Below, piece after piece: positions 662 to 19,424 of a stretch of DNA of 27,299 nucleotides; position 1 is the first letter of the stretch, and each line of letters starts with the position of its first letter. Below the pieces are notes generated by a model, which saw only the letters and a list, made by a program, of their open reading frames with translations, was not told where the DNA came from and did not search any database. Source of the DNA: a virus; the IMG/VR virus record IMGVR_UViG_3300034418_008582, positions 1 to 27,299 of that record. One strand, 5' to 3'. Made by a program: the position numbers and the translations under genes.

Positions 662-663
662 TG

Positions 664-671
664 TATAAATA
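664..671 (+). promoter_or_regulatory. T4-type late promoter for the 67-68-21 genes
   Basis: Exact TATAAATA, the T4 late promoter element recognised by RNA polymerase carrying gp55. It lies 24 bases upstream of the first capsid-core gene. A gp55 homologue is encoded at 8584. Confidence 0.85.
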
Positions 672-694
672 CGTTAGATTTAGAGGAGAATGCA

Positions 695-871
695 ATGAGC
701 GTCAAAGATATTATTCGTTCCGTGAAAGAGAGAGATCCAGTTTCGTTTCAGGCATCGGTTGAGGCTGAGCTTGCTGCTCGTATGACAGATGCCCTAGACA
801 ACAAGAAGATCGAAATCGCTCAGAGTGTATTTACTCCTGATGAACCAGAAGAGGAACTTACCGATGACTAG
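695..871 (+). CDS. 67: Small prohead core protein, gp67-like
   Basis: A 58-residue acidic protein beginning MSVKDIIRSVKERDP. The ATG at 695 is chosen because AGAGGAG lies 7-8 bases upstream and a late promoter stands just before it; an open frame to 611 exists but would start upstream of the promoter. It has a helical N-terminal half and an acidic tail (DEPEEELTDD). In T4, gp67 is a minor prohead core component and its gene is first in the 67-68-21-22-23 order; the same place and size apply here. The stop overlaps the next start. The assignment rests mostly on synteny, size and the start of the sequence. Confidence 0.7.
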   Translation: MSVKDIIRSVKERDPVSFQASVEAELAARMTDALDNKKIEIAQSVFTPDEPEEELTDD

Positions 872-1376: not shown

Positions 1377-1385
1377 GAGAATCCA

Positions 1386-2051: not shown

Positions 2052-2058
2052 CCGATTG

Positions 2059-2066
2059 TATAAATA
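2059..2066 (+). promoter_or_regulatory. T4-type late promoter for gene 22
   Basis: Exact TATAAATA, 46 bases upstream of the scaffold gene ATG and just after the end of gene 21. Confidence 0.85.
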
Positions 2067-2077
2067 GACACACATCG

Positions 2078-2097
2078 GTAAGAAGTACCGTTCTTAC
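2078..2097 (+). other. Leader hairpin before gene 22
   Basis: GTAAGAA (2078-2084) and TTCTTAC (2091-2097) form a perfect 7-bp stem with a 6-base loop. It lies in the transcript leader between the late promoter and the AGGAG ribosome site at 2100. It could stabilise the mRNA or tune translation. Confidence 0.4.
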
Positions 2098-2111
2098 ATA
2101 GGAGTCGAACA

Positions 2112-3401: not shown

Positions 3402-3430
3402 CTTGTGGAACGAGTGTAGACTCGGGTTTA

Positions 3431-3438
3431 TATAAATA
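3431..3438 (+). promoter_or_regulatory. T4-type late promoter for the major capsid gene
   Basis: Exact TATAAATA, 54 bases upstream of gene 23. Confidence 0.88.
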
Positions 3439-3445
3439 AGAAAGA

Positions 3446-3467
3446 TCAGGGAATACAAGGGCCCTGA
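3446..3467 (+). other. Leader hairpin before gene 23
   Basis: TCAGGG (3446-3451) pairs with CCCTGA (3462-3467) around a 10-base loop, upstream of the GAAGGAG ribosome site. Its position parallels the leader hairpin before gene 22. Confidence 0.35.
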
Positions 3468-3491
3468 ACATTTTCACAGAAGGAGTATTAA

Positions 3492-4847: not shown

Positions 4848-4877
4848 TATGAGTTCGCACTAGCGAGCAAACATTAG

Positions 4878-4906
4878 GGGGCACCTCTTCGGGGGTGCCC
4901 CTTTTT
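4878..4906 (+). terminator. Intrinsic terminator after the capsid gene
   Basis: GGGGCACCTC and GGGGTGCCCC form a 10-bp stem closed by a TTCG tetraloop (4888-4891), followed by TTTTT at 4902-4906. This is a textbook stable terminator directly behind gene 23. Confidence 0.95.
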
Positions 4907-4912
4907 GCGTTT

Positions 4913-4920
4913 GATAAATA
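4913..4920 (+). promoter_or_regulatory. Late promoter variant abutting the terminator
   Basis: GATAAATA, one base off the late consensus, starts only 6 bases after the terminator T run and ends 5 bases before the next ATG. It would restart late transcription for the tail genes independently of gene 23. Confidence 0.65.
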
Positions 4921-4925
4921 GAATC

Positions 4926-5102
4926 ATGGAACGCAAGAAACTCAAATGGGAATATGCAACTCAAGAAGTCACTGAACGCTGCCTTGAGCGCGCTCGATTT
5001 CTGATTGATCGTGGTTATATTGATGTCCGTGAAGAGGACATAGAAACTCTCGCCAAACGAATATATTATTCAGAAGAGGATGATGAAAATGGCACAGCCT
5101 AA
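4926..5102 (+). CDS. Small basic/acidic protein between gene 23 and the tail-tube gene, unknown function
   Basis: 58 residues from ATG 4926 (MERKKLKWEYATQEVTERC). The frame continues upstream to a TTG at 4905, but that lies in the terminator. It is helical, Lys/Arg-rich at the start and acidic at the end (SEEDDENGTA). The ATG is only 5 bases after the late promoter element, so the mRNA would have almost no leader; no good ribosome site is visible and no other Met is available. It overlaps the next gene. No family recognised; a tail-assembly or chaperone role is only a positional guess. Confidence 0.6.
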   Translation: MERKKLKWEYATQEVTERCLERARFLIDRGYIDVREEDIETLAKRIYYSEEDDENGTA

Positions 5103-5592
5103 TAACATCAACATGATGAGTCAACTTGGATTTCGTTTTCACGTCAGAAAACTACCCAACGTAAACTGGTTCGTCCAGAGTGTAATGCTGCCAGGATTGA
5201 CTGTTCCAGATGCAGAACACGCCACACCATTTCAAATTACATACAGGCCAGGTCGAACTGTAGAGTATGATCCACTGGCTGTTGAATTTAAGGTAGACGA
5301 AGACCTGAAGACATTTATTGAGATTATGAACTGGATGCGTGGTATCGGATTCCCTGAAAGTTATGATGAGTATAAGAACAATGTTGGCACAGGTCTTCAG
5401 GATGCCGTTATGTCAGACGCTACGCTGATGATTCTCAACTCGAACATGAACGCATCACACGAATGTACCTTCTACGATATATTCCCTATCAACATGAGCG
5501 CGCTCCAGTTTAACTCCACTTCAAGTGACGTAGACTATCTTTCAGTTCAGGTGTCGTTCCGGTACCTTCGATATGAAATAAAATCACTATAA
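5089..5592 (+). CDS. 19: Tail-tube-fold protein (gp19-like)
   Basis: 167 residues from ATG 5089, which has AGAGG 9 bases upstream; the ATGs at 5080 and 5083 are too close to it. The pattern LGFRFHVRKLPNV..FVQSVMLPGLTVP, then PGRTVEYDPLAVEFKVDED and an insertion-loop-like INWMRGIGFP segment, fits the T4 tail tube protein family (gp19 and its relatives gp48/gp54): a beta sandwich that stacks as hexameric rings inside the sheath. The C-terminal beta strand (LSVQVSFRYLRYEI) also fits. Length is near T4 gp19 (163). It may be the tube itself or a baseplate-proximal tube paralogue. Confidence 0.75.
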   Translation: MAQPNNINMMSQLGFRFHVRKLPNVNWFVQSVMLPGLTVPDAEHATPFQITYRPGRTVEYDPLAVEFKVDEDLKTFIEIMNWMRGIGFPESYDEYKNNVGTGLQDAVMSDATLMILNSNMNASHECTFYDIFPINMSALQFNSTSSDVDYLSVQVSFRYLRYEIKSL

Positions 5593-5596
5593 AGAC

Positions 5597-5624
5597 TTGA
5601 CATATTATATTACGCAGCTATAAT
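5597..5624 (+). promoter_or_regulatory. Strong sigma-70 type promoter opening the recombination/Pup cluster
   Basis: TTGACA (5597-5602), a 16-base spacer, then TATAAT (5619-5624): perfect -35 and -10 boxes for the host vegetative sigma factor. The flanks (agac before, TAT after) match the second promoter at 16194. It suggests early or middle transcription by unmodified host polymerase. Confidence 0.85.
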
Positions 5625-5654
5625 ATGTGAACTCATTTCTAAAGGAGTATTTTC

Positions 5655-6107
5655 ATGATCAGAGTAATCGGCTTCCTTATTGCGTTATTGGTTAGTTCAG
5701 TAGCCACAGCACAGGTAATTAACATTCCAACTTCAACTACCGGAGTTGCAACCTTCACTGTTGGTATTATCGAGAATGATCCTCGTATTACCGAGACGTG
5801 CATTTATCGTATTGTTGATGTGCAAGAGAAGGTCGCTTGCGCTACTCCTGACAGCTATATCGACCCCCCGCCTACTGTCGTTGCTTGGAAGATAGCTGAA
5901 ATTCCGGTTACGCTCCCGACCGTTCCTGTTGGTGTGGGCAACGAAGTTTCGTACATCGCTTATAATATTATTACTGTGCCTGATGGTCGTGGTGTTATTA
6001 CTCTGCCTGATTACAATCTTGTTGCGTCTACTCGCACGGATCAAATAGGTGAAATTACTCCTGAGCCTGTCTTACCTACCATTGTAGAGGTCAACGTAGC
6101 ACAGTGA
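5655..6107 (+). CDS. Secreted or membrane-associated protein with Sec signal peptide, unknown function
   Basis: 150 residues starting MIRVIGFLIALLVSSVATAQ. This is a classic short signal peptide (Arg near the start, hydrophobic core, AxA-type cleavage near residue 19-20). The mature part is beta-rich with two Cys (about residues 49 and 62, possible disulfide), Pro-rich loops and no transmembrane segment. AAGGAG lies before the ATG, and it is the first gene after a perfect sigma-70 promoter. Its stop overlaps the uvsY GTG. A secreted product made early could alter the cell envelope, for example in superinfection exclusion, but nothing in the sequence proves this. Confidence 0.75.
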   Translation: MIRVIGFLIALLVSSVATAQVINIPTSTTGVATFTVGIIENDPRITETCIYRIVDVQEKVACATPDSYIDPPPTVVAWKIAEIPVTLPTVPVGVGNEVSYIAYNIITVPDGRGVITLPDYNLVASTRTDQIGEITPEPVLPTIVEVNVAQ

Positions 6108-6538
6108 CGCTTGATGATATTATGACTGAGTGGGAGAAGGACAAGTCGATGGACTCAACTTCTCTTGATAGTGAATCGTTGAAAATTCCTGATCTGCATC
6201 ACAAATATCACAAGATGCTGTCTGCTGAGAATGCCGTACTTAGAAGAATGGCAGCACGAGTTGAAGAGGTCAAGACGCTTCGATGGTTATACTTCTCTGG
6301 CAAGCTCGACGAAGATACGCTGAAGAAATATAATTGGGAGCCGTTTGATCTGAAGGTGATGAAACAGGACACGCAACGATTTGTTGACGGTGATCCAATC
6401 CTAAATAAGTATGTGATCGAGTTAGGCGATCAAAAGGAGAAAATAGAGTTGATCAAGAGTATTATGTCTCAGATCAACAATCGCTCCTTTCAGATCAACA
6501 ATGCAATCAAATGGCAACAATTTCTAACAGGGCAATAA
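6104..6538 (+). CDS. uvsY: UvsY-like recombination mediator
   Basis: 144 residues, matching T4 UvsY (137). It helps load the UvsX recombinase onto single-stranded DNA covered by gp32. The N-terminal pattern [30 protein letters not shown] and the helical ..[23 protein letters not shown] fit the family. The GTG start at 6104, which overlaps the previous stop (GTGA), is kept because the family normally begins with this L-DI-x-W-x-KD segment; the ATG at 6122 would cut it off. The next gene starts 1 base after the stop. Confidence 0.85.
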
Positions 6539-6539
6539 A

Positions 6540-6716
6540 ATGTCAGAACAGAAGACGGCAAAGAAGACTGAGGAAGCTCCAAAAGAGCAAGATACCACCA
6601 AATCAGAAAAAGTCGATACTACTGGTATTGATGATCTGCTTGATGACATCGACGATGTGCTAGAGGAGAACGCTGAAGAGTTCGTAAAGAACTTTGTTCA
6701 GCGAGGTGGCGAGTAG
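6540..6716 (+). CDS. pup: Prokaryotic ubiquitin-like protein Pup, phage-encoded, ending in GGE
   Basis: 58 residues, very close to actinobacterial Pup (about 64). The N-terminal ~28 residues are Lys/Glu/Thr-rich and disordered. From residue 31 the sequence reads [18 protein letters not shown], then [10 protein letters not shown]. Compared from memory with the M. tuberculosis Pup C-terminus ([18 protein letters not shown]... VQKGGQ), about 21 of 28 positions agree and most changes are conservative. This part is the coiled-coil Mpa-binding region plus the conjugation terminus. The last residue is Glu, the ligatable form, so no Dop deamidation is needed before PafA joins it to a target lysine. 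It starts 1 base after uvsY and precedes uvsW. A cognate ATPase is encoded at 17823. Confidence 0.95.
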
Positions 6717-6734
6717 CCATTTCCTCTCTTTGTT

Positions 6735-8195
6735 ATGTCTGATATTGAACTAATCAAAGTCAACGAAGTGTATCTGCGCGTTGATGCAGAGCCGCACATT
6801 CTGGCTGAACTGGGCGACCATTTCACCTTTCTGGTGCCTGGGCATCAGTTTATGCCTGCTTTTCGCAATCGCCTGTGGGATGGCAAGATTAGACTATTAG
6901 ACACGCGCAACCAGACAATCTATTCTGGGCTTATACACCACATCGAGCAGTTTGCTCAAGACAGAGATTATGACATATCATATCCGTCTGATCTCAATAT
7001 AGCCACATCGTTTAGTCTTGTCGAAGGTAGAGAGTTTGCATCAACTCTCAATCTTCCGTTTGAACCGCGTGACTATCAAATGGAAGCATTCGTGACTTGC
7101 GTTCGCGATCATCGTAAATTGATCCTTTGCCCAACAGGTTCAGGCAAATCGCTGATCGCATATCTGCTAACAAGATACTATCAGCAGGAGTGTGATGGTA
7201 AGATACTCATCATCGTCCCTACCATCTCACTTGTCAATCAGTTATACAAAGACTTTGCTGATTATGGATGGAACACCGCAGAGAATGTCCATCGTATTAT
7301 GCAAGGGAAAGACAAAGCAACAGATTTGCCTGTTGTTATTTCAACATGGCAATCTGCTTATAAGCTGCCAAAGGCTTGGTTCGACCAGTTTGATGTTGTG
7401 ATAGGTGACGAGGCGCATCTATTCCAAGCCAAGTCCATCCAGACGATGATGACGAAGATGACCGATGTTAAGTATCGCTTTGGAATGACAGGAACACTTG
7501 CTGATGCCAAAACACACTCGCTAGTTCTTGAAGGATTATTTGGGCGCATTCGCAAGATAATCAAAACAAAAGACTTGCAAAAAGCTGGGCATCTTGCTAA
7601 ACTACAGATCAAAGCAGTTGCACTCAAGTATGCTAAAGATGAGTGCCGTGTTGTGTCCAAGATGAAGTACCACGAGGAGATCGACTTTCTGGTATCTCAT
7701 AAAAAGCGAAATATTTTCATTCGCAATCTTGCGCTTTCGCTTTCGGGGAATACATTAGTATTGTTTAATTTTGTAGAGAAGCACGGAAATGTGCTTCACC
7801 GTATGATAGAGGAGAAGGCTAACGATAAACAGGTATATTATGTCTGGGGAGGCACGGATGCGGAGCTTCGCGAACAGGTAAGGGAAATTACGGAAAACAA
7901 TAATGATGTGATTATTGTAGCTTCTGCTGGTGTATTCAGCACAGGAGTCAATATCAAAAACCTACACAACGTAATCTTCTCTCATCCTGGCAAATCAAAG
8001 ATCCGTGTGCTTCAGAGCATTGGTCGAGTTCTCCGTACCACGGAGACAAAAGAATCAGCAACTCTATACGACATTGTAGATGACTTGACAAATGGAAGTA
8101 AAAAGAACTTCGCCGCGACTCACTTTATTGAGCGACACAAATACTATGTGGCAGAAAAGTTTCCAGTCAAGCTATACAAGGTGGAGGTGAAATGA
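6735..8195 (+). CDS. uvsW: UvsW-like DNA/RNA helicase
   Basis: 486 residues, close to T4 UvsW (about 500). It is a superfamily-2 helicase that unwinds R-loops and branch-migrates recombination intermediates, and in T4 it shifts replication from origins to recombination. Visible parts are an N-terminal DNA-binding domain (LWDGKIRLLD), a Q-like motif PRDYQMEA, Walker A PTGSGKS (about 133-139), DEAH (225-228), GMTGTL, and the second RecA domain with GVFSTGVN and QSIGRVLRT (motif VI). No good ribosome site is seen in the 18 bases after pup, so translation may depend on coupling. Confidence 0.95.
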   Translation: MSDIELIKVNEVYLRVDAEPHILAELGDHFTFLVPGHQFMPAFRNRLWDGKIRLLDTRNQTIYSGLIHHIEQFAQDRDYDISYPSDLNIATSFSLVEGREFASTLNLPFEPRDYQMEAFVTCVRDHRKLILCPTGSGKSLIAYLLTRYYQQECDGKILIIVPTISLVNQLYKDFADYGWNTAENVHRIMQGKDKATDLPVVISTWQSAYKLPKAWFDQFDVVIGDEAHLFQAKSIQTMMTKMTDVKYRFGMTGTLADAKTHSLVLEGLFGRIRKIIKTKDLQKAGHLAKLQIKAVALKYAKDECRVVSKMKYHEEIDFLVSHKKRNIFIRNLALSLSGNTLVLFNFVEKHGNVLHRMIEEKANDKQVYYVWGGTDAELREQVREITENNNDVIIVASAGVFSTGVNIKNLHNVIFSHPGKSKIRVLQSIGRVLRTTETKESATLYDIVDDLTNGSKKNFAATHFIERHKYYVAEKFPVKLYKVEVK

Positions 8196-8584
8196 AAACT
8201 GAAGATATGAAGATCCATTATGTTGTGCTTGTCGATGGCACAGAACTAATTGGAAAGAGCGCAGGCAGAGGATGGGCTGGGAATGTCAAAATCATTGAAC
8301 CCTGCATTATCATTCGCGATGACTGCGAAAACAGTATAGCCGCTGTTCGTAGATGGATGCGTTGGGCAGAAGACCCAAGCAAGCCAGTTGAGCTATCATA
8401 CCATAGTGTTGTGACTTGCTTTCCTGTCAACGAAGCCATAGCGGAGCAATATGTCATTGCTCTTGATAATATCACAAAGACTAACGAAAAGCTCGATGCA
8501 ATTCAAAATAATGATATAGACGATGAACCAAGTATAGACGAGTTTATTAGCGAGTTCCTTGGTAAGAAAGGAACACTTCACTGA
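8192..8584 (+). CDS. Conserved-looking phage protein, possible Sm-like fold, unknown function
   Basis: 130 residues; ATGA overlap with the uvsW stop. The N-terminus (IHYVVLVDGTELIGKS..., then IIEPCIIIRDD) has the short-strand pattern of small Sm-like or beta-barrel domains. A Trp/Arg-rich RRWMRWAED segment, ELSYHSVVTCFPVNE and an acidic helical tail follow. T4-like cyanophages often carry small proteins of this style near uvsW and gene 55, but I cannot name a family securely. It sits translationally coupled between uvsW and the late sigma factor, so a role in transcription or RNA handling is conceivable. Confidence 0.65.
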   Translation: MKTEDMKIHYVVLVDGTELIGKSAGRGWAGNVKIIEPCIIIRDDCENSIAAVRRWMRWAEDPSKPVELSYHSVVTCFPVNEAIAEQYVIALDNITKTNEKLDAIQNNDIDDEPSIDEFISEFLGKKGTLH

Positions 8585-9168
8585 TGCCACGTCGATCAAA
8601 AGAACAACAGTCAAAGTCACACTATGTCGATAACAAAGAATTCTTCAAAGCGATGGTTGAATTTCTTGAACAGGTCAAATTAGCAGACACGAAGGGTGTG
8701 GATCGCCCTCGCATACCCGATTACATTGGTGACTGCTTTATGAAAATCGCCACACACTTATCCTACAAGCCAAACTTCATCAATTACACATATCGCGATG
8801 ATATGATTATGGATGGTGTGGAGAACTGTATTCAATACATTTACAACTTTAATCCAGAAAAGACTCAGAATCCATTTGCATATTTCACGCAAATCATCTG
8901 GTATGCGTTTTTGCGTCGCATTCAAAAAGAGAAGCGACAACTCTATATCAAGTATAAGCAAATCGAACAAATGGATATTGAAGATGCTATGAGTGAAGAC
9001 TCCATTAGTCGAAAGACAAACATCCGTGAAGAACATGCTGCTCGCTTGGAGTTCATCAAGAACTACGAAGAAGCTATGGAAGAATCCAAGAAGAAGCAAA
9101 GGCAGGTGAAGTTCAAGAAAGATCGGACCTCGAATGGATCGACTCTTTTTGGAGGTGATGATGAGTGA
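8584..9168 (+). CDS. 55: Late sigma factor gp55
   Basis: 194 residues, matching T4 gp55 (about 185). It binds host RNA polymerase core and recognises the TATAAATA late promoter together with the gp45 clamp and gp33. The segment YRDDMIMDGVENCIQYIYNF followed by NPFAYFTQIIWYAFLRRIQKEK is the reduced sigma region 2 typical of gp55, including the core-binding helix and the aromatic/basic promoter-melting helix. The start is in a TGATG overlap with the upstream gene. Exact late boxes upstream of the capsid genes in this window match its expected function. Confidence 0.93.
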   Translation: MPRRSKEQQSKSHYVDNKEFFKAMVEFLEQVKLADTKGVDRPRIPDYIGDCFMKIATHLSYKPNFINYTYRDDMIMDGVENCIQYIYNFNPEKTQNPFAYFTQIIWYAFLRRIQKEKRQLYIKYKQIEQMDIEDAMSEDSISRKTNIREEHAARLEFIKNYEEAMEESKKKQRQVKFKKDRTSNGSTLFGGDDE

Positions 9169-10246
9169 TTATAAGGTAGCCATCCTCACTGATACACATT
9201 TCGGTGCGCGTAACGATAGTCCGGTGTTCCTTGACTACTTTATGGACTTCTATAACAACGTGTTCTTCCCGTATGTCAAGGAGAACAACATCTCGACGCT
9301 GATCCATCTCGGTGATATTTGCGATCGTCGAAAGTATATCAACTTTCGCACGCTCCAGACATTCCGCGATGAGTTCGTCTTTCGCCTGTGGCGAGAGAAA
9401 ATCGACACGCATGTCATCATAGGTAATCACGATCTATACAACAGAAACGACTCCAACATCAATTCGATGACTGAGCTGTTTACGACGTTCGAGGGTGAGT
9501 GCGAGCCTTGGATTTATCACGATCCAACTGAAGTTGAAATATATGGTAAGAAGGTGTTGTTTGTTCCGTGGATCAACGAGGAGAACAAAGAGCGTAGTCA
9601 CAAACTGATTCGTTCGACTAATGCTCCTATCGTGATGGGGCACTTGGAACTATCTGGCTTCCAAATGCACAGAGGCGCACCAAACTCGCACGGAGACGAC
9701 CCGTCTATATTTGACCGATTTGATAAAGTCTTGACTGGGCACTATCACCACAAATCAGATGATGGAACCATCTTCTATTTGGGCGCACCATACGAGATGA
9801 CATGGAGCGACTATCAAGATCCTCGTGGATTTCATGTGTTTGATATGGAGACACACGAGCTGGAGTTCATTGAGAATCCCTATCGTATGTATCACAAGAT
9901 ATTCTACAATGACAAGAATAAGACGCTTGAAGAAATGATGGCAGATGACTTTGAACGCTATCGCAATCGTTGTGTCAAGTTCGTCGTTCAGGAGAAGAGC
10001 AATCCATACTGGTATGATATGGTGCTTGATAAGCTCTACAAGGTCAACCCGTTCAACGTGGCTATCGTCGAAGACTACAGCGATGATCTGTTGTCAACCA
10101 CAGCACAGCAAACGGTAGATCAAGCTCAGGATACCATGTCGATCCTGACATCATATGTCGATAGTATGCAGGTAAACCAGAAGCAAGAAATTAAGGACTT
10201 GCTCGCAGGCCTATATACGGAAGCACTAACAACAGAGGGGGACTAA
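9161..10246 (+). CDS. 47: Recombination endonuclease subunit gp47 (Mre11-like)
   Basis: 361 residues from ATG 9161 (MSDYKVAILTDTHFG), 5 bases behind GGAGG; the frame is open to 9134 but that lies within gene 55. It is a metallophosphoesterase that, with gp46, resects double-strand ends for recombination-dependent replication. All Mre11 phosphoesterase motifs are visible in order: DTHFG, HLGDICDRR, IGNHD, GHLE and GHYHH. The C-terminal part is helical and acidic, and would bind the gp46 coiled coil. The stop and the gp46 start overlap (TAATG), suggesting balanced production. Confidence 0.96.
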   Translation: MSDYKVAILTDTHFGARNDSPVFLDYFMDFYNNVFFPYVKENNISTLIHLGDICDRRKYINFRTLQTFRDEFVFRLWREKIDTHVIIGNHDLYNRNDSNINSMTELFTTFEGECEPWIYHDPTEVEIYGKKVLFVPWINEENKERSHKLIRSTNAPIVMGHLELSGFQMHRGAPNSHGDDPSIFDRFDKVLTGHYHHKSDDGTIFYLGAPYEMTWSDYQDPRGFHVFDMETHELEFIENPYRMYHKIFYNDKNKTLEEMMADDFERYRNRCVKFVVQEKSNPYWYDMVLDKLYKVNPFNVAIVEDYSDDLLSTTAQQTVDQAQDTMSILTSYVDSMQVNQKQEIKDLLAGLYTEALTTEGD

Positions 10247-11967
10247 TGGTTACCTTCAAAACTTTACGCTGGCGTAATCTGTTGTCCACGGGAAATAACT
10301 GGACAGAGATTAAACTGGACGGTCAGAGTAACACTCTGATCATGGGTGAAAATGGCTCCGGTAAATCCACCATTCTGGATGCTCTAACCTTTGCTCTTTT
10401 TGGCAAGCCATTTCGCAAGATCAACAAGCCACAGTTAGTCAACAGCGTCAATGGTGCAGACTGTCTCGTCGAGATTGAGTTTACTATTGGCACAAAGCAC
10501 TATCATGTGTCACGAGGTATCAAGCCAAATGTTTTTACAATCACTTGCAACGGTGTGGAGATCCCTTCTCCTGCTGCTGCAAAAGACTATCAAGACATTC
10601 TGGAAAGCCAGATCCTCGGATTCAGTTACAAGTCATTCTGTCAAGTCGTCATCCTCGGAAGCTCGACCTTCGTTCCCTTCATGCAACTGCCCGCTGGCCA
10701 ACGCAGAGAAATCATCGAAGACCTCCTCGACATCTCGATCTTCGGGCAAATGAATGATGCTCTCAAGACAAAGGTGTCAGAGCATAAAGAGAAAGTGAAT
10801 ACGGTCAAGTCAGAGATTGCCTTGAAGACGCAATACATCGACCTTCAAACAAGCACACTCGCTTCAATCAAGCAGTCTAATGATACCGAAGTGGATGACT
10901 TGAAGACTAAGATCGCGGAGCATACAAAAGCTCTCGACACGAGTTCAACGCAAGCTGAAACGCTAAATCTACAAATCACTGCTATGGAAGAGAAAGAAGC
11001 ATACGCTCAGCTTGATGCGAATATCAAGAGTCTCGATAAGGCAAAGAATATAAAGTCAAAGCTAGAAGGTAAGGTTGCTGGATATGATAAGCAGCTCAAG
11101 TTCCTTCACGAGAAGGATGACTGCCCGACATGCGAACAGACCATTGATGAAGCGTTCAAGCGTTCTGCTGAAACTACCAAGACAGCAGAGCGTGATGTTC
11201 ATCAAAAGCATCTCGACGAATTGAATCATAGAATCACACAGTTCAAGGACAAGATCGGATTAGGTAACAATATCAAGACAGAAATAGAAGGCGTCGTAGC
11301 ACAGCTCAATAGTGTCAGGTCTGATATGAATGCTACTCAGCGTGTCATCAACTCGCTGAACGAACAGATTGCAAAGATGGATGCAAAGCGTGACACCAAA
11401 GAGATCGAAGCAGGAATCGCTGAAGCAAAAGAAGCTCTTGTTGAGTTCGAGTCGCAAAAGGAAGAGCTTGCTTCCAAGGCAGAAGTGTTTAAGGTTGTTG
11501 CTGGATTACTCAAAGACAGTGGCATCAAGACATTGATCGTCAAGCAGTATCTACCGATCATCAATCAGCTAGTCAATGGTTATCTGGCTAAACTCGACTT
11601 CTTTGTCAAGTTCAATCTCGATGAAAACTTCGATGAGAAGATACTCTCACGGCATCGTGATGACTTTAGTTATGCCTCATTCAGCGAGGGAGAAAAGTCT
11701 CGTATTGACCTTGCTCTCCTGCTGACATGGCGTGCTATTGCCAGAATGAAAAATAGTTGTGCTACCAATCTTCTTTTGCTTGACGAAGTATTTGATAGCA
11801 GTCTTGATGATGGAGGGCTTGCTGAAGTCACAAAGATCCTGTATAATCTTGGAGAGGATCAAAACATTTTCGTGGTATCCCACAAGGGCGACCAAATCGC
11901 AGACAAGTTCAAATCAACCCTGCGTTTCGAGAAGGTGCGCGGGTTCTCAAAGATGATTGGAGCGTAG
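10246..11967 (+). CDS. 46: Recombination endonuclease subunit gp46 (Rad50-like ATPase)
   Basis: 573 residues (T4 gp46 about 560). SMC/Rad50-type ATPase partner of gp47. Walker A GENGSGKST starts at residue 34. A long coiled coil runs to a zinc hook CPTC at about 293-296, then returns. ABC signature SFSEGEKSRIDLALLL and Walker B LLLLDE follow at about 478 and 510. All motifs needed for ATP hydrolysis and hook dimerisation are intact. It overlaps gene 47 by one base, as in many T4 relatives. Confidence 0.96.
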   Translation: MVTFKTLRWRNLLSTGNNWTEIKLDGQSNTLIMGENGSGKSTILDALTFALFGKPFRKINKPQLVNSVNGADCLVEIEFTIGTKHYHVSRGIKPNVFTITCNGVEIPSPAAAKDYQDILESQILGFSYKSFCQVVILGSSTFVPFMQLPAGQRREIIEDLLDISIFGQMNDALKTKVSEHKEKVNTVKSEIALKTQYIDLQTSTLASIKQSNDTEVDDLKTKIAEHTKALDTSSTQAETLNLQITAMEEKEAYAQLDANIKSLDKAKNIKSKLEGKVAGYDKQLKFLHEKDDCPTCEQTIDEAFKRSAETTKTAERDVHQKHLDELNHRITQFKDKIGLGNNIKTEIEGVVAQLNSVRSDMNATQRVINSLNEQIAKMDAKRDTKEIEAGIAEAKEALVEFESQKEELASKAEVFKVVAGLLKDSGIKTLIVKQYLPIINQLVNGYLAKLDFFVKFNLDENFDEKILSRHRDDFSYASFSEGEKSRIDLALLLTWRAIARMKNSCATNLLLLDEVFDSSLDDGGLAEVTKILYNLGEDQNIFVVSHKGDQIADKFKSTLRFEKVRGFSKMIGA

Positions 11968-11968
11968 T

Positions 11969-13135
11969 ATGGCTGGGCACGATGAAGTTGAAATGAAAGC
12001 GTGGCAAAAAGGCATTCCACTAACTGTGCTGAAAGACATTGAAGCGCAATACAAAGTGTATAACAGTTACAGTTGCTCACCTTTCAGTGAAGTGAAGAAA
12101 CATCGTATAGCAGACGCCATAGCGAAAGGGGAACATCAACATCAAGGATTCTGTCGATATGATCTCGCCGAAGCGAAGGTCAAAGGCAAGATCGTTATGT
12201 ATGGTAAAGTAACGATTGGAGAGAAACTGCCAGGAGATTGCACGATTACAAACTTGACATTCACGGATGCAGAGAAAACTTCTGAACACCTGTCTACGAT
12301 CTGCGATCCGTGTTGGGCATTTGCTTGGGCAGATTGGCAAGAGCAGAATGATGTTCTGGTCAATGCTGGGTTCAATAAAGTTGGTGTTAAGATAACGTCG
12401 TTTGCAGAAATATATAATGTGTATTTCAAGAATGGCCAAACGTCTACTCTATTTGAAGACCTGAGGCAACATCCTATTCTCGATCCGCTTGAACATAGCA
12501 CCCTCGACAGAATGGATGTTTCTATTGATAAGATCCTTCCGCACGTTCAGGATCTTCAGAGACAACTCTCTGAGCTGTCATTGGACTTCACCGATCACTA
12601 TAGTAACTACAACGCGAAGCACTCATGGGGCGCGCTCTCGTTAAGAGGATATACACCCGATCCTGAGTTCATCACCAAGCCAGAAGAGATGAACAAGAAG
12701 TGGCATCAAGAAAATGAAAACGAGACGTTCAGACTTCAGGATACGGAGCTTCGTTCTCTGCTCCCTGCCACAGAAAAACTACTTACCCTGTTGCCTGGTG
12801 TTCACCATCGGATTCGATTGATGCGCTTGACTGCTGGTGGTGGTGAGCTTCGTCGTCACACAGATCAAGTCGATCCTGATGCTGGAGTTATGGAAGGGCA
12901 GTTACTTCGATTCCACTTTCCGATTATCACCAATGATGACGTTAAGTTTACAATGTGGAACACGAAGAATGAAAAGAAAGAAGTGAACATGCGAGTTGGT
13001 GAGCTTTGGGCTATTGACACTCGTAAGCCACACATGGCAATCAATGGAGGAGAAGATGATCGCATTCATCTTGTGATTGATGTTGAAGCGAATAATGCTC
13101 TTCGTGAGCTGATATATAAGTCTATGGAGGTATAA
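11969..13135 (+). CDS. Two-part protein: N-terminal domain of unknown type plus 2-oxoglutarate/Fe(II) Asp/Asn beta-hydroxylase-like domain
   Basis: 388 residues from ATG 11969, which has TTGGAG 6 bases upstream and follows the gp46 stop by 1 base. The C-terminal domain (about 215-380) carries the double-stranded beta-helix signature of aspartyl/asparaginyl hydroxylases: WGALSLRGY, ELRRHTDQ with H297-x-D299, LRFHFPIITN, GELWAIDTRKPH with His355, and the 2-oxoglutarate-binding Arg365 in DDRIHLVIDV. The N-terminal ~160 residues (ending GFNKVGVKITSFAEIYNVYF) look like a compact alpha/beta domain, perhaps GNAT-like, but this is weak. It may hydroxylate a protein or nucleic-acid target; the substrate is unknown. 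Confidence 0.75.
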   Translation: MAGHDEVEMKAWQKGIPLTVLKDIEAQYKVYNSYSCSPFSEVKKHRIADAIAKGEHQHQGFCRYDLAEAKVKGKIVMYGKVTIGEKLPGDCTITNLTFTDAEKTSEHLSTICDPCWAFAWADWQEQNDVLVNAGFNKVGVKITSFAEIYNVYFKNGQTSTLFEDLRQHPILDPLEHSTLDRMDVSIDKILPHVQDLQRQLSELSLDFTDHYSNYNAKHSWGALSLRGYTPDPEFITKPEEMNKKWHQENENETFRLQDTELRSLLPATEKLLTLLPGVHHRIRLMRLTAGGGELRRHTDQVDPDAGVMEGQLLRFHFPIITNDDVKFTMWNTKNEKKEVNMRVGELWAIDTRKPHMAINGGEDDRIHLVIDVEANNALRELIYKSMEV

Positions 13136-13136: not shown

Positions 13137-13535
13137 ATGAAGAAGCTGTATGAGGATATGTTGTCTCGTATTCCACTCCGAGCGATTGGTGGAGAAGAGT
13201 ATTCATACGAGTGTTACGGTAAGAATGCTCGATACTTGGATCTTGAATGTAACGCTACGGTAATCTTTGATGAAGAGACTGAACGCATCTTTGAAGTGAC
13301 ATTATGGGACACCGGAGAAGATGCTCCAGAGTTCATCTGGCGTGACGATTTGTATTTTGATGCCTTTATGGATGAGATGCGAAAACGAAGAGGTATCAAA
13401 GAATCAGAGGAAACAGATGACATTGTTCAAATGAGAATGGCAACAACAGAGGATTTCGATCTCGTTGTTGAAACCATTCGTGAGCGTTTCATAGAAAATG
13501 ACATTATAGAAGGTAAAGCAAAAAAGAGGACGTAA
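13137..13535 (+). CDS. Acidic protein of unknown function
   Basis: 132 residues, ATG 13137 one base after the upstream stop, with a GGAGG-type site inside the end of the preceding gene. The N-terminal half has short beta segments (RYLDLECNATVIFD, IFEVTLWD). The C-terminal half is helical and charged, ending KGKAKKRT. The middle stretch APEFIWRDDLYFDAFMDEM is rich in aromatic and acidic residues. No domain recognised. It is tightly packed in the cluster, so it is likely a real gene. Confidence 0.65.
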   Translation: MKKLYEDMLSRIPLRAIGGEEYSYECYGKNARYLDLECNATVIFDEETERIFEVTLWDTGEDAPEFIWRDDLYFDAFMDEMRKRRGIKESEETDDIVQMRMATTEDFDLVVETIRERFIENDIIEGKAKKRT

Positions 13536-13536: not shown

Positions 13537-14619
13537 ATGATGATTCATAATGAAGTAGATTTGTTTGAGAAGCGTTATCAAGAAAATCATTGTGTTGATG
13601 GTGTATCTTTCGTAGTATACAAGAATGGAAGATTGGCTACGGATGATGACAACGCTCTCTTCACGGGATTATATCTCGCTGCTGCTGCGTTTCGATATGC
13701 GTCTACCCCTCACTCTGATGATAATCTAAATGCAGTCTGTAATGCTCTTGATGGCATCTCTCTATTGACGAGTGTATCTGGCACAAATGGTGTTTTAGTT
13801 CGTCAAGCGTTTCCATTGGAGAATGCTTGGGATAGAATAGGATATGATCCTGTTATGTCAATGGTGCCTGGAAATACATTCGGGCAACGAATCCGTGATG
13901 GCTATTTGTTTCATGGTGAGTATCAAGGAAAAGAGTATGCGTTTCTAACACGAACAACAAAGGATCAGATCACGGGCATTCTGTTTGGACTAACTTGTGC
14001 TTGGCATCTTGTTCCTCCAGCTCGTGATCAAATATTCATCATCGTTGATGATCTCTGGCAGAGAATGAATAAGACAAACTATTCACTTCGTGATCACACC
14101 GGAAGCACACACGGAACGACAGCACACATGCTCGATGAACCCCTGAAAGTTTGTATGAAATCTCTATACAAGGCAGTCATCAATAGAACTGCTCCAAAGG
14201 CTGATAGCTTCTTTTTCAATCCATTCATCAACTGGCTAATGACGCTTCACTACAACAGAACGATACAAGGAACATATTCATACAATCTCAATCTTCTAAT
14301 GGCACATGCGCTGTTAATGCTGGAACCGTATCATAAATGTGACGTTGGTGTTCGTCAATGGAGAAAGAGATTACATGACATGGTTGCGAAAGACAGCAAT
14401 CCACACTTTGATATGCTTGGCGTTGGTCACATGACTGTTGGATCTGTTGATGCACTATGGAGACGTATCAATGTCCCATATCACAAAGGATTTTGTTGGA
14501 GTCGTGATCCTGAAGAATGGTTTGGATTCTCCTCTTCAAGTGATAAAGTCGGGCCCGGAATTGACGTTCTTCTTCCTTACTGGATGCACCAGTATTATAG
14601 CGAGCATCAGTTGACATGA
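13537..14619 (+). CDS. Probable alpha/alpha-toroid protein, possibly glycosidase-like, unknown role
   Basis: 360 residues from ATG 13537 (or 13540), with AGAGG upstream. The text NALFTGLYLAAAAFRYA, ALDGISLLTSVSGTNGVLVRQAFP, TKDQITGILFGLTCAWHLV and YNLNLLMAHALLML has the repeated helix pattern of (alpha/alpha)6-toroid proteins, a fold common in glycoside hydrolases and polysaccharide lyases. The Arg/Lys-Asp-Gln-x-x-Gly-x-x-Phe-Gly-Leu segment resembles bacterial hypothetical proteins of that class. No signal peptide, so it would act inside the cell or be packaged in the virion. The exact family is uncertain. I looked for the PafA/Dop ligase motifs and did not find them. Confidence 0.6.
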   Translation: MMIHNEVDLFEKRYQENHCVDGVSFVVYKNGRLATDDDNALFTGLYLAAAAFRYASTPHSDDNLNAVCNALDGISLLTSVSGTNGVLVRQAFPLENAWDRIGYDPVMSMVPGNTFGQRIRDGYLFHGEYQGKEYAFLTRTTKDQITGILFGLTCAWHLVPPARDQIFIIVDDLWQRMNKTNYSLRDHTGSTHGTTAHMLDEPLKVCMKSLYKAVINRTAPKADSFFFNPFINWLMTLHYNRTIQGTYSYNLNLLMAHALLMLEPYHKCDVGVRQWRKRLHDMVAKDSNPHFDMLGVGHMTVGSVDALWRRINVPYHKGFCWSRDPEEWFGFSSSSDKVGPGIDVLLPYWMHQYYSEHQLT

Positions 14620-15263
14620 GTTTTCTTAATGCGGACATTCCAGTATTTGAAGCGTATGTTAGGAATGAGTTTTTATACGACATGCAAAAAGGATTTGGTG
14701 AGTTCACATCAGTAGCAGTGTTTGGTGTGTGTTCAAGAGCAGGATGGGCAACTGGTTTTCATGTGATGACCGAACGTGGCGCACAAGTTGGAAGACTACC
14801 GATACATTCACTTGCATGGAAGAAGGATGCACCAAACAGACCATTAGATGCTCTACAGTTGTGGGACTCGTTTTCCGATGACGTTTCAGTTCACGAATAT
14901 GGTCTGCTGGCAAGGAAGAGATGTCGTGTTCTACTCAAAGATTCGGAGGTGGTTAGTGCCACTTACTTATTTACATTCGATTGGACAAATGGTTGTCATG
15001 CTGATGGCGTCGGTGATTTGGGCTGGAAGTGTGGCCATCTACTCAAGCTCGATGATGGTAATTTTGCTATTCAGCCTAATAATAGAATACTCTGGTACGA
15101 TCCTGCGTTCGTGGCAAACCCGTATGAAGGAACGGATAAACCAGATTATCTAATCAACACACACGAATGGATTTGTGAATCTACTAAATCAAAGTATGTG
15201 ACAACAGAGAACTCTGATAGAATGTTCTATGACGTGAAGGACAATGATGATGGGTCTGTTTGA
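14616..15263 (+). CDS. Conserved-looking phage protein of unknown function
   Basis: 215 residues, ATGA overlap with the upstream stop. Mixed alpha/beta composition with many Trp, Gly and Asp residues (RAGWATGFHVMTERGAQVGRL, DWTNGCHADGVGDLGWKCGH). It looks like a compact single domain with strands around the GLGW-type turns; Cys and His residues near 145-160 might bind metal. No family recognised. It is coupled to the neighbouring toroid-like gene and overlaps the PLP-enzyme-like gene by about 20 bases, so these three are probably made together. Confidence 0.6.
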   Translation: MSFLNADIPVFEAYVRNEFLYDMQKGFGEFTSVAVFGVCSRAGWATGFHVMTERGAQVGRLPIHSLAWKKDAPNRPLDALQLWDSFSDDVSVHEYGLLARKRCRVLLKDSEVVSATYLFTFDWTNGCHADGVGDLGWKCGHLLKLDDGNFAIQPNNRILWYDPAFVANPYEGTDKPDYLINTHEWICESTKSKYVTTENSDRMFYDVKDNDDGSV

Positions 15264-16053
15264 TATGACAGCAGAGGATTATTTGAAAGAAGTTGAAGGG
15301 TGGGTAGATCCTAATCCTGCACCTGAAATTGTAGAGCATGATGATCTTCTTGTGGTGCGTGATGATATGCTTGGGTATGGATCAAAGATCCGTGGGCTTG
15401 ATTATTTGATTGGGCACGCACCTGAGTTCTCAAAGATTGACAAGTGGTGTTTCGGTGCTTGCCCCTATCAAGGATACGCACAGATCAGTCTACCGTATCT
15501 TTGTAATCGCTATGGCAAGGAAGCGCATTTGTTTATGGCGCAGCGTAACATGGATAAGCTACACCCAAATCAAAAGATGGGAATCGAGCTTGGTGCTAAC
15601 TATCATTGGATACCTAATGGTATGTTGAATGTGACTAAAGCAAGATGTCGTGAATATGTTGCAGAAGATCCTGAACATCGCATGGAGTTCCCTTTGGGAT
15701 TGGAACATCCTACTGTCATTGGATCTCTGATAAAGGTTGCGAGAAACCTAAATATTCAACCAGATCATGTCTGGTCAGTTGGAAGCAGCGGTACGTTAAA
15801 CCGAAGCCTTCAGCTCGCATGGCCTGATGCTGACTGCTTTGTGGTTGGTGTTGGTCATGGTATGGATGATCGAGAGATTGGTAGAGCGACACACTTTAGA
15901 TCGCCATACAAGTTCAATCAGAAGGTGAAGGATGTGGATGCCCCTCCATATCCATCGGTACCAGAATACGACGCAAAATTGTGGAGTGTGGTCCGAGAAT
16001 ACTACAAAGAGAACGAGAAACCTCCGGTAGTTTTATTATGGAATGTCGCATGA
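15244..16053 (+). CDS. PLP-dependent enzyme-like protein (fold type II, ACC deaminase / D-cysteine desulfhydrase relatives)
   Basis: 269 residues; any of the ATGs at 15244, 15247 and 15250 may be the start, and the first overlaps the preceding gene. VVRDDMLGYGSKIRGLDYLIG near residue 38 resembles the RDD...GGxKxRKLE segment of this family, with Lys48 as the likely PLP Schiff-base lysine. A Cys/Gly segment (FGACPYQGYAQ) sits where the substrate loop is expected, and VGSSGTLNRSL (179-189) matches the phosphate-cradling GSGGT loop. It is shorter than typical members (about 330). It could act on an amino acid, or on an amino group in a modified nucleotide given the methyltransferase next door; that is speculation. 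Confidence 0.6.
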   Translation: MMMGLFDMTAEDYLKEVEGWVDPNPAPEIVEHDDLLVVRDDMLGYGSKIRGLDYLIGHAPEFSKIDKWCFGACPYQGYAQISLPYLCNRYGKEAHLFMAQRNMDKLHPNQKMGIELGANYHWIPNGMLNVTKARCREYVAEDPEHRMEFPLGLEHPTVIGSLIKVARNLNIQPDHVWSVGSSGTLNRSLQLAWPDADCFVVGVGHGMDDREIGRATHFRSPYKFNQKVKDVDAPPYPSVPEYDAKLWSVVREYYKENEKPPVVLLWNVA

Positions 16054-16063
16054 GGACACACAT

Positions 16064-16204
16064 ATGCTACAGCGCCTACATAATCTGTGGAAGCGCATTT
16101 TAGGATTTCACGTTTGTTTCTTTATCACCGAAGTCAAACAAGTCGATGGTATTACCCAAATGCTTTACCGATGTGAAACATGCGGAAAAAGACTTGACAG
16201 ATGA
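16064..16204 (+). CDS. 46-residue zinc-ribbon-like mini-protein
   Basis: Short gene from ATG 16064 to a TGA that overlaps the methyltransferase ATG (ATGA). The N-terminus is basic with an aromatic stretch (LWKRILGFHVCFF), the middle is beta-like and the end is MLYRCETCGKRLDR with a CxxC knuckle; His16 and Cys18 could complete a metal site. Similar small one-knuckle proteins are common in phages. The sigma-70 boxes at 16194-16221 overlap its last codons. GAGGA lies 8 bases upstream of the start. Confidence 0.6.
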   Translation: MLQRLHNLWKRILGFHVCFFITEVKQVDGITQMLYRCETCGKRLDR

Positions 16205-16221
16205 TTGGATGGGACTATAAT
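16194..16221 (+). promoter_or_regulatory. Second sigma-70 type promoter, before the methyltransferase and Mpa genes
   Basis: TTGACA (16194-16199), 16-base spacer, TATAAT (16216-16221). It has the same boxes, spacing and flanks (agac... and ...TAT) as the promoter at 5597. It sits across the start of the methyltransferase frame, so transcripts from here would begin near 16228, at the ATGATG of the in-frame Met pair. Confidence 0.75.
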
Positions 16222-17811
16222 ATACACATGATGACACCCGCATTCTATTCTCGTAACGCTGATCTAATTGACGACCCATCGGTCAATCTTCTATTTGAAG
16301 ATGCCATGGCAATGTCAGACAAGGAGTTTTCCGACTGGGCATGGAATCTCCGTAAACTGATAGTCAAGTTGTGGGATCAGGGTATTCCTCCTCGCAACGG
16401 GCTCGACGAGCAGGGTATCATTGATCAGTTCGATCGCATGACAACTCATCCGGTCCATGAGTTTCTGCTTGAGGATCTGCTGACTGGCGAGAAAAACGTC
16501 ATTCGCAACGAAACTAATCTTGGCAATGCAGCCAATCAATGGTTCCCATCCATGCTGGCTACACGCATTGCATACACATCCAAGCTGAACGATGCCAAGT
16601 CGGTATATGATTGGTTCGCTGATGATAGTCTCCATGAGCGATTTATGAAGTATGTTCGCCGACACTACCAGCGAGATGGCTTTTATCACTACTCTATGCC
16701 TGTGCGTCGGAATAATGCGAAAGATTTCCTTTTTCATACAGAGAGCGGTGAGGAGTGGGTGAAATGGTTTGAAGCGAATAGAAGACATTATTTGGAAGAT
16801 GACTATTGGCTTGCGCCCAAGTGCTTGAATAAAGCATATACGGGCGCTGCTGAGGACGAGGAAATTCATCATCAGCTTTTTATTCCCAAGGAGCGTATCG
16901 CAGACCTTCCGATCCCCGAAACATCCAAATACAACATGGGAAACCCTGATGATTGCGATGGATACCAAATCCGATACTACAAGCTGGGGCAGCGTATCTT
17001 CCCGCTGGGGCTGAAGACGTTTCGTGTTTCCTTCTGCCAGTATGCGGTCAACTATCCTCCGCTAACAGCTCGGTATCTTTACGAACGATACACTGAACAC
17101 ATCAAGGATCAGGATGTCATCAATATCTACGATCCGTCGATGGGCTGGGGTGGTCGTATTCTTGGAGCGATGGCAGTTAAGGACGATCGTAACATTCACT
17201 ACATCGGTACCGATCCTAACACCGATCACAACTTGCCAGACGGCAGCACCAAGTATGCCAATCTCGCTGATTTCTATAATACACGCACAAGTAGAGCAAA
17301 CTCCCTATTTCCACATACGCACACATATGATATATTTCAACGTGGGTCGGAAGTAATAGGAGACGATGAGCGTTTTCAGAAGTATCGTGGGAAGTTGGAT
17401 ATGGTATTCACTAGCCCTCCATACTTTGCCAAAGAGATTTACTCTGAAGATCCTGAACAGTCCGCTCACAAATTTACTACATACAAGACCTGGCGAGATG
17501 GATTTCTTCGCCCAACACTAACAACTGCTGTTGAGTATCTGAAATCGGATCGCTATTTGTTATGGAACATAGCCAACTGTGTTTTTGATAATATCAACCT
17601 ACCACTTGAGGATGACAGTCGAGCAATACTTGAAGAACTGGGAATGGAGTATATTGAAACCTTGAAAATGACACTATCTACCATGCCGGGTGGCAATCGC
17701 GTGGACGAGGAAGGAAAGCCTCGCACCGAAAGTTTTGTTCGCATACGAAAGGTAAATGATGGTGAAATGTATCGCAAATATGAACCCATATTTGTGTATC
17801 GCAAGCCATAA
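16201..17811 (+). CDS. DNA methyltransferase, N4-cytosine/N6-adenine type
   Basis: 536 residues from ATG 16201, coupled to the mini-protein stop; the in-frame ATGs at 16228 and 16231 are an alternative start for transcripts from the promoter at 16194. The SAM-binding motif I is NIYDPSMGWGGRILGAM (about 308-323). The catalytic motif IV is TSPPYF (404-409), in the order motif I then IV, and YLLWNIANCVFD follows. The ~280-residue N-terminal part is unusual in length, aromatic and charged, and probably recognises the target or modifies activity. No restriction enzyme is visible next to it, so a protective or epigenetic role on phage DNA is more likely than a restriction-modification pair. Confidence 0.85.
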   Translation: MIGWDYNIHMMTPAFYSRNADLIDDPSVNLLFEDAMAMSDKEFSDWAWNLRKLIVKLWDQGIPPRNGLDEQGIIDQFDRMTTHPVHEFLLEDLLTGEKNVIRNETNLGNAANQWFPSMLATRIAYTSKLNDAKSVYDWFADDSLHERFMKYVRRHYQRDGFYHYSMPVRRNNAKDFLFHTESGEEWVKWFEANRRHYLEDDYWLAPKCLNKAYTGAAEDEEIHHQLFIPKERIADLPIPETSKYNMGNPDDCDGYQIRYYKLGQRIFPLGLKTFRVSFCQYAVNYPPLTARYLYERYTEHIKDQDVINIYDPSMGWGGRILGAMAVKDDRNIHYIGTDPNTDHNLPDGSTKYANLADFYNTRTSRANSLFPHTHTYDIFQRGSEVIGDDERFQKYRGKLDMVFTSPPYFAKEIYSEDPEQSAHKFTTYKTWRDGFLRPTLTTAVEYLKSDRYLLWNIANCVFDNINLPLEDDSRAILEELGMEYIETLKMTLSTMPGGNRVDEEGKPRTESFVRIRKVNDGEMYRKYEPIFVYRKP

Positions 17812-17822: not shown

Positions 17823-19424
17823 TTGACTGAGGAAATCCAAGACACTATCACGGTGAACGCTGAAGAACTCAGAGAGTTGCATCAGGAACACGCACACAGT
17901 GTTGCCATGAATCAGAGACTTGAGTATCTGCTTCAGCAAGCAAAAGTCAAGCTGGCGGAGATGAAGGATGAACTTGAGCGATTGAGTAATCCTCCGAATG
18001 TGTATGCTTCATTCCTTCACATGAACGATGATGGGTCGGCTGAAGTAATCGCAAATGGAAGACGAATGCGATGTACCATTTCAAATCACATACCGATTGA
18101 AGAGTTGCATCGTGGGCGTTATTTGATTATGAACGAGCAAATGGTTGCTATTGCCATTGGCCCTTACGCTGATGCTGGTGAAATCTGTAAGGTGCTTGAG
18201 GTACTTGACGATCGACGACTTGTTATTGAAGGGCGTCTCGACGAGAGAAAGATCATCTATTTGAGGGATGGGCTCAAGGTAGAGGATCGCCCACTCAAGC
18301 CAGGTGATGAAGTTCTCGTTGATCCTACAAGCGCAGTTGCTATGGAATATGTGTATAAGGTTGACGAGAAGGACACTCTACTCGAAAGCGTTCCTGATGT
18401 GACATATGATAAGATTGGTGGAATTGACGATGCGATTGAAATTGTTCATCATAGCGTCGAACTACCATACAAGCATCCTGATGTGTTCAAGGAGTTTGAA
18501 CTTGATGCACCCAAAGGTATTCTTTTGTATGGTCCGCCTGGATGCGGAAAGACATTGATTGCAAAGGCTATCGCAAACAGCCTGGCAAAGAAGGGTGGTG
18601 TATCACAATTCATCAACATCAGCGGTCCCCAACTTCTCACCAAATGGGTGGGTGAGTCGGAGCGACGTATCAGAGAAGTGTTCAACAAAGCGCGAGAGGC
18701 TGCGACGCCTGAAAGCCCTGTTGTGATCTTCTTTGATGAGGCAGAGAGCTTGTTTCGTATGCGCGGATCAGGTAAGTCATCTGATATGGAAAGCACAATC
18801 GTTCCTACACTATTGGCTCAGTTGGATGGTGTTGAAGGGCTTGAGAATGTGTTAGTTATCTTTGCGTCCAACAGACAAGATTTGATTGATCCTGCTGTTC
18901 TTCGACCTGGGCGCATTGATATTAAGATCAGATTGTCACGACCTGATCGAGATGCTTCAAAGAAAATCCTTAGTGTGTATTTACATCCTGGGCTGCCTAT
19001 TGAGGGTGATCTGGATTCTATTCTGGATAAAACTATCGACTATTTGTTTGAAGAAGCACCTAACAAAGAGTTCCTTGAGCTGGTGTATAGTAAGGGGACG
19101 AGAGAAACTTTATATTTTAAGGATTTCTTATCAGGAGCGATGTTGGAAAACATTGTTGCTCGGGCTAAGAAACTCGCAGTTCTTCGTCGAATAGAAGGTG
19201 AAACAACAGGCATCACTACAGAAGACATGATTACTGCTGTGGATCAAGAGTTCCATGCAACACGAGATTTGCCAAACACAAGTGATGTGTCTGATTGGCA
19301 AGCAATCACTGGGCGTAATAACGGTGAAGAGATTGTTAAGATCCGATCGCTTGTTCAAAAGAAGGAAGCAGAGGAAAAGAAACCGAAAATGATTGAAGAT
19401 GCTGCCACCGGGCAATATCTCTAA
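17823..19424 (+). CDS. mpa: Proteasomal ATPase Mpa/ARC homologue with C-terminal GQYL docking motif
   Basis: 533 residues from TTG 17823, 7 bases behind AGGAG (M. tuberculosis Mpa about 609). Domains in order: N-terminal coiled coil that binds Pup (about 10-55), two OB-type barrels (about 60-180), AAA+ domain from about 192. Walker A GPPGCGKT (237-244), pore-loop KWVGE (274-278), Walker B FFDE (303-306), sensor ASN (348-350) and arginine finger RPGR (361-364) are all intact. Near the end DLPNTSDVSDW resembles the conserved pre-C-terminal segment of Mpa. The last residues are TGQYL, the tail that inserts into the 20S core and opens its gate. It should unfold pupylated proteins for a proteasome. 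No 20S subunit genes are in the window, so the host core would be used. Confidence 0.95.
   Translation: MTEEIQDTITVNAEELRELHQEHAHSVAMNQRLEYLLQQAKVKLAEMKDELERLSNPPNVYASFLHMNDDGSAEVIANGRRMRCTISNHIPIEELHRGRYLIMNEQMVAIAIGPYADAGEICKVLEVLDDRRLVIEGRLDERKIIYLRDGLKVEDRPLKPGDEVLVDPTSAVAMEYVYKVDEKDTLLESVPDVTYDKIGGIDDAIEIVHHSVELPYKHPDVFKEFELDAPKGILLYGPPGCGKTLIAKAIANSLAKKGGVSQFINISGPQLLTKWVGESERRIREVFNKAREAATPESPVVIFFDEAESLFRMRGSGKSSDMESTIVPTLLAQLDGVEGLENVLVIFASNRQDLIDPAVLRPGRIDIKIRLSRPDRDASKKILSVYLHPGLPIEGDLDSILDKTIDYLFEEAPNKEFLELVYSKGTRETLYFKDFLSGAMLENIVARAKKLAVLRRIEGETTGITTEDMITAVDQEFHATRDLPNTSDVSDWQAITGRNNGEEIVKIRSLVQKKEAEEKKPKMIEDAATGQYL

Follow-up and report, generated by a model that had tools for sequence, protein, structure and literature searches.

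What does a T4-like phage hydroxylate? The question is raised by a 27,299-base stretch of DNA (the window), a contig of an uncultured T4-like phage from an IMG/VR virus record, which carries gp23, uvsY, uvsW, sigma gp55, gp47 and gp46. Directly behind gene 46 (SbcC-like; 10,246–11,967, + strand; phrog_77, E 1e-168; SMC_N and AAA_23), and separated from it by a single base, lies an open reading frame for a protein of 388 residues, here called OXY (11,969–13,135, + strand). A first-pass annotation had described its product as a two-domain protein, which it is, having seen in the C-terminal half the HxD...H...R set of Fe(II)/2-oxoglutarate (2OG) hydroxylases; it left the N-terminal domain unplaced, and offered a host protein, a phage protein or a nucleotide as substrate. 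The best reading of the evidence below, to which we give a somewhat better than even chance, is that OXY belongs to DNA hypermodification.

The C-terminal hydroxylase domain

The AF2 model of full-length OXY, made with 46 aligned sequences, comprises two domains and has a mean pLDDT of 93.6. The second domain, about residues 177–388 (12,497–13,132, + strand), is predicted by its fold matches to be a double-stranded beta-helix, and it is here that Pfam family PF05118 (Asp_Arg_Hydrox) matches, over residues 202–373 (E 2.4e-10; 40.9 bits against a cut-off of 22.6), as it also does in 46 of 46 aligned relatives. The residues of the predicted active site, namely H297 and D299 as first two metal ligands (codons of H297-T-D299 at 12,857–12,865), H355 as third ligand (13,031–13,033) and R365 as the arginine that would bind 2-oxoglutarate (13,061–13,063), all on the + strand, are invariant in all 46 aligned rows.

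The closest solved fold by Z is that of Cpz10, the caprazamycin beta-hydroxylase (PDB 7v4f/7v4m; Z 16.0, 2.8 Å over 158 residues, 21–22% identity), which has the same HxD...H...R site and in which, judging from the alignment and PMC9814697, Arg170 would be the equivalent of R365. Together with L-proline cis-4-hydroxylase (Z 15.5, and the best PDB sequence match, limited to the hydroxylase half), the oxygenase domain of human AspH (Z 15.3; the type of PF05118) and proline 3-hydroxylase, it forms a set spanning Z 14.8–16.0, with prolyl hydroxylases next at Z about 12. The beta-helix with its metal site, on the presence of which the first-pass assignment had been made to depend, is thus found in the model, and from fold and conserved active-site residues the predicted enzyme class, that of the Asp/Asn/Pro-type Fe(II)/2OG hydroxylases, can be taken as secure. 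By itself, the fold also spans enzymes acting on free amino acids, on proteins and on lipid A. Just before the beta-helix core there is a further block, W220, R226-G-Y228, K237-P-x-E240-M241 and W245, which is likewise invariant (46/46) and may serve to read the substrate.

The N-terminal domain

The N-terminal domain can now be placed. Comprising residues 1–178 (11,969–12,502, + strand), of which about 16–163 are aligned, it gives an AF2 pLDDT of 93.8 when modelled alone, and GNAT proteins head both the Foldseek and the VIA matches, the best being 2pc1 (Z 11.4, 3.1 Å, 138 residues). In GNAT enzymes the pyrophosphate of acetyl-CoA is usually held by a loop of pattern [QR]xxGx[GA] between beta4 and alpha3. 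This motif is present at the beta4–alpha3 junction in none of the 46 rows (chance matches elsewhere in the domain occur in 9), and because it is missing the domain is filed here as a GNAT fold rather than as an acetyltransferase. Comparison with a single sequence of Mu Mom gave an hhalign probability of 0.6%.

The genomic neighbourhood of OXY

Relatives of OXY were found in 255 cases in viral contigs, a number that makes OXY more than a chance occurrence, and the best 80 of these 255 were taken into the set of loci. For counting neighbours, only loci found with OXY as query were used: of 94 such loci, 50 were dropped for short flanks, leaving 44 flanked by 3 kb or more on either side, and a further 13 as redundant, leaving 31 that are non-redundant at 90% identity. 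Gene gaps in this count derive from stop-to-stop frames and are hence approximate.

In 30 of these 31 loci a gene for a PLP-dependent enzyme, an N6/N4-type DNA methylase, or both, lies no more than 6 kb from OXY (both in 20, methylase only in 9, PLP only in 1), the remaining locus, L099, having neither; a methylase gene is therefore near in 29, while PLP is absent within this distance in 10, L099 included. The next recognised gene downstream is likewise one of these (the PLP families PLP and PLP2, or the methylases MT24 and MT536) in 30 of 31. The usual order is gp55-gp47-gp46, often a peptide deformylase gene, OXY, and then a PLP enzyme of either family and/or MT536. The deformylase (PF01327, E 7.6e-34) is the nearest gene recognised before OXY in 23 of the 31 loci; in most relatives its cluster (L036:1262-1873, 47 loci) separates gp46 from OXY, an arrangement not seen in the window. 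Since relatives of OXY are nearly always found beside genes that alter DNA bases, OXY probably aids the phage in decorating its own DNA, rather than hydroxylating protein. Of the substrates first offered, a nucleotide is the best fit, and more specifically a base in DNA or an amino-acid group carried on such a base; a protein is not favoured.

The position behind gp46 is not a fixed one. In L049, L062 and L076 OXY stands between MT536 and a second methylase, downstream of clamp and clamp-loader genes; the gene comes after cobS in L024, and in L100 OXY and PLP are adjacent between tail fibre and baseplate genes (several of these labels having been assigned by eye). The “recombination cluster” to which the gene had been assigned is thus correct as an address and as nothing further.

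In some relatives genes resembling cupin sugar isomerases and PfkB-type kinases also lie downstream of OXY, and OXY has a weak NCBIfam match to the lipid A hydroxylase LpxO (E 4.9e-4), both of which would suit an LpxO-like enzyme that modifies a cell-surface lipid or sugar in remodelling the envelope. However, that match scores 19.3 bits where the cut-off is 500, the sugar-gene clusters have just 6 and 5 members, and the company of methylase and ADDT genes (for the latter see below) would be left unexplained; we regard such a role as very improbable.

In the window itself three genes, for proteins of 132, 360 and 215 residues, separate OXY from PLP. The first (13,137–13,535, + strand) has relatives in L001–L007 and no match in Pfam, PHROG or NCBIfam. 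The third (14,616–15,263, + strand) bears the PHROG label “ferredoxin” (E 2.8e-50), which Pfam and NCBIfam do not support.

The PLP enzymes and methylases

The PLP gene of the window (15,244–16,053, + strand) is predicted to encode an enzyme of fold type II (PALP type), matching phrog_7093, “threonine dehydratase” (E 1.3e-27), and retaining K48 and an SSGT loop. The protein itself has no PALP match in Pfam; a Microcystis phage Mae-JY30 protein 38% identical to it does (E 4.6e-12). The lysine is retained in 14 of 14 members of this family and in 9 of 9 of the other, PLP2, which resembles cysteine synthase. MT536 (16,201–17,811, + strand) is DNA-methylase-like, of N6/N4 type, with the motifs DPSMGWGGR and TSPPYF and matches to phrog_12517, phrog_498 and PF01555, the last at E 2.6e-4, which is under the family cut-off; its columns D311, P312, G315, W316, G318 and R319, and T404–F409, are invariant (16/16).

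Two named phages tie the PLP family to the modification of DNA. In one of them, Erythrobacter phage ZS04, a PLP domain (residues 395–622, E 3.9e-68) is found inside an 812-residue ParB-N6_N4-methylase protein (L085:2326-4764), where it sits between the methylase motifs DPFAGGS and SCPPYGD (located by eye), and in Mae-JY30 the PLP gene is downstream of ParB and methylase genes.

Distribution, and the relative in phage LilMcDreamy

Two further metagenomic contigs, L001 and L002, carry near-copies of OXY (99% protein identity). Among 84,980 bacterial and archaeal genomes there is one relative, on a contig that itself carries gp46-OXY-PLP-MT536, and among 50,697 phage records the sole relative is gp4 of Mycobacterium phage LilMcDreamy (two records of one genome). 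The T4-like phages concerned are represented here almost entirely by uncultured contigs. Searches with single proteins (those of L081 and L100, and the window PLP) returned only themselves or near-identical loci.

LilMcDreamy gp4 (L081:2656-3759) matches OXY with an hhalign probability of 99.9%, and a BFVD structure search placed it at rank 1 (TM 0.79/0.83 over 378 columns). The sequence match is confined to its residues 104–359, the first 100 residues being unaligned by sequence, while by predicted structure the two-domain layout is shared, as are the H-x-D, H and R residues and the blocks W-x-A-x-x-L-x-G ... K-P-x-E-M ... W. It differs from OXY in being only 21–25% identical and in its neighbours, which are not PLP and methylase genes: the genome begins with genes for a ParB-like protein, a Tet/JBP-like oxygenase (gp2), ADDT (gp3) and gp4, of which gp3, directly before gp4, matches PF18724, ADDT or “Amino acid:DNA transferase”, at E 2.7e-12. 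Gp2 (L081:855-1787) is labelled a queuine tRNA-ribosyltransferase by GenBank and phrog_6059. That label was set aside because of an oxygenase-like pattern, HRD...GGHLHLP...H...R (seen by eye), a weak Tet_JBP match (Pfam E 0.0022, by itself below significance) and a best PDB match to a Tet-like dioxygenase (E 0.85); gp2 is probably a Tet/JBP-like 2OG oxygenase.

These observations bear on another possibility, in which the substrate of OXY is a free amino acid and its product is used by the PLP enzyme, of serine/threonine-dehydratase type, in a small metabolic pathway to which the methylases are bystanders. The substrate of L-proline cis-4-hydroxylase, close to OXY in both fold and sequence searches, is indeed a free amino acid; the labels of both PLP families, threonine dehydratase and cysteine synthase-like, are in keeping; and OXY and PLP adjoin in many relatives and are found together at another site in L100. 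Against this, the LilMcDreamy relative adjoins an ADDT gene, with no PLP-family gene recognised in bases 1–11,756 and 30,000–71,552, the parts of that genome searched, a member of the PLP family lies within a DNA methylase in ZS04, and methylase genes attend OXY in nearly every locus counted. We consider this possibility unlikely, and the cultured LilMcDreamy makes the preferred idea, that of DNA modification, directly testable.

Glycosyltransferases as alternative partners

Both MT536 and PLP are also found without OXY, and in such loci a different partner may appear. Among 37 PLP loci (non-redundant at 90% identity) a glycosyltransferase gene, of family GTa or GTb, is present in none of the 22 that have OXY and in 6 of the 15 that do not (Fisher p 0.002); at 70% identity the figures are 0/10 and 4/9 (p 0.03). 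The loci were pooled from OXY, MT536 and PLP searches, and are not independent in ancestry. GTa and OXY are never found together: the GTa loci (n = 17, many of them near-identical contigs) have PLP in 17, MT536 in 15 and OXY in none. Glyco_trans_1_2 of Pfam is matched by 2 of 5 GTa members (best E 4.4e-4), and the sole PDB sequence matches are to T4 DNA beta-glucosyltransferase at E 0.13, with an hhalign score of 22.9, two other T4 proteins scoring 13.1 and 16.3; this similarity is by itself below significance, and is no more than suggestive of GTa being a DNA glucosyltransferase. GTb matches Glycos_transf_1 at E 3.5e-5, just under the family cut-off. In one locus (L228:9017-10006) a protein resembling, by eye, the phosphate-binding protein PstS is encoded between PLP and the glycosyltransferase.

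Shared ancestry

Some of this consistency must be put down to descent. Distances between OXY sequences correlate with those of gp46 at r = 0.85 and with those of PLP at r = 0.61, the partial r for the latter given gp46 being 0.17; OXY thus follows the phage backbone, and as most relatives belong to one T4-like lineage, the recurring neighbours are in part a legacy of common descent. That OXY and PLP have been transferred together, over and above the backbone, is only weakly supported. That the PLP part can exist alone is illustrated by L103, in which bases 6736–8231 are 99.5% identical in DNA to 14,616–16,111 of the window, PLP included. The identity breaks off sharply at the 215-residue gene's start codon, upstream of which L103 has a diverged gp46 region and a different phage backbone, with OXY absent between gp46 and the PLP block; the break reflects either recent recombination or a chimeric assembly.

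A possible pathway, and comparison with known systems

For OXY in particular, we would put at about even the chance that it is a tailoring enzyme in a phage DNA hypermodification pathway, hydroxylating an amino-acid-like group that a base already carries or is to receive. The nature of that substrate, taken alone, is the more tentative part, and we hold it with rather less than even confidence. In the order of steps that we infer, MT536 (plus MT24 in some relatives) would select and prime the base, the PLP enzyme would make or attach an amino-acid-like side group, and the beta-helix domain of OXY, with Fe(II), O2 and 2-oxoglutarate, would hydroxylate a C–H of that group, either once it is on the base or shortly before it is attached. 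The N-terminal GNAT fold, which has no usual CoA motif, would probably grip the substrate by its aminoacyl or nucleotide part without acetylating it, and in related phages that lack OXY the group would instead receive a sugar cap from the glycosyltransferase encoded beside PLP. The wider proposal to which this leads is of an undescribed base modification in which a PLP enzyme and a DNA methylase (fused in ZS04) place an amino-acid side group that is finished, according to the phage, through hydroxylation by the GNAT-hydroxylase fusion or through glycosylation by a DNA-glucosyltransferase-like enzyme; as a whole this is possible but doubtful.

Cpz10 offers a chemical parallel. According to PMC9814697 it hydroxylates the amino-acid group on a glycyl-uridine nucleoside, and since it acts on a nucleoside-linked amino acid the chemistry proposed for OXY is plausible, although not proven. 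Unlike OXY it is a single domain, without the GNAT domain, and belongs to an antibiotic pathway that does not involve DNA. The CmoX/CmoY/CmoA carboxymethylcytosine system of Synechococcus phage S-B43 is another known system with likenesses to this one: as described in the main text of PMC12783734, a methylase-fold enzyme sets a handle to which a second enzyme adds an amino acid, the same succession as proposed here, and ParB proteins are nearby. CmoX, however, has an SPPC motif and uses Cx-SAM, where MT536 has TSPPY, and the terms oxygenase, hydroxylase, PLP and GNAT are absent from that main text. In the literature searched, no account was found of GNAT and AspH-type domains fused in a DNA-modifying protein, though an earlier mention in Iyer 2013 is possible. 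If the preferred reading is right, phage DNA hypermodification would gain a new tailoring chemistry, in which an amino acid is hydroxylated by an enzyme of AspH type and not of the TET/JBP kind.

Protein hydroxylation and the proteasome ATPase

Action on a host or phage protein, in the manner of AspH or the prolyl hydroxylases, would accord with the fold similarity to both. AspH is, however, just 14% identical to OXY and has a TPR partner domain in addition to its protein substrate, and the neighbours of OXY relate to DNA modification rather than to translation or proteolysis, the frequent peptide deformylase excepted. Protein hydroxylation had been suggested as a pairing with a protein-degradation system nearby, the window encoding a predicted proteasome ATPase of Mpa/ARC type (17,823–19,424, + strand; NCBIfam TIGR03689, pup_AAA, 586 bits against a cut-off of 504.75). 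That pairing does not recur: no relative of this ATPase is found in 80 OXY loci (many of them on short contigs), where the recurrent neighbours are PLP and methylase genes, and a protein substrate appears to us quite improbable. The ATPase is present in two closer relatives of the window by DNA similarity, L104 and L182. No core protease was noticed in the window. The ATPase has the C-terminus GQYL, a motif through which Mpa/ARC proteins attach to the 20S core, and the phage may by this means redirect the proteasome of its host.
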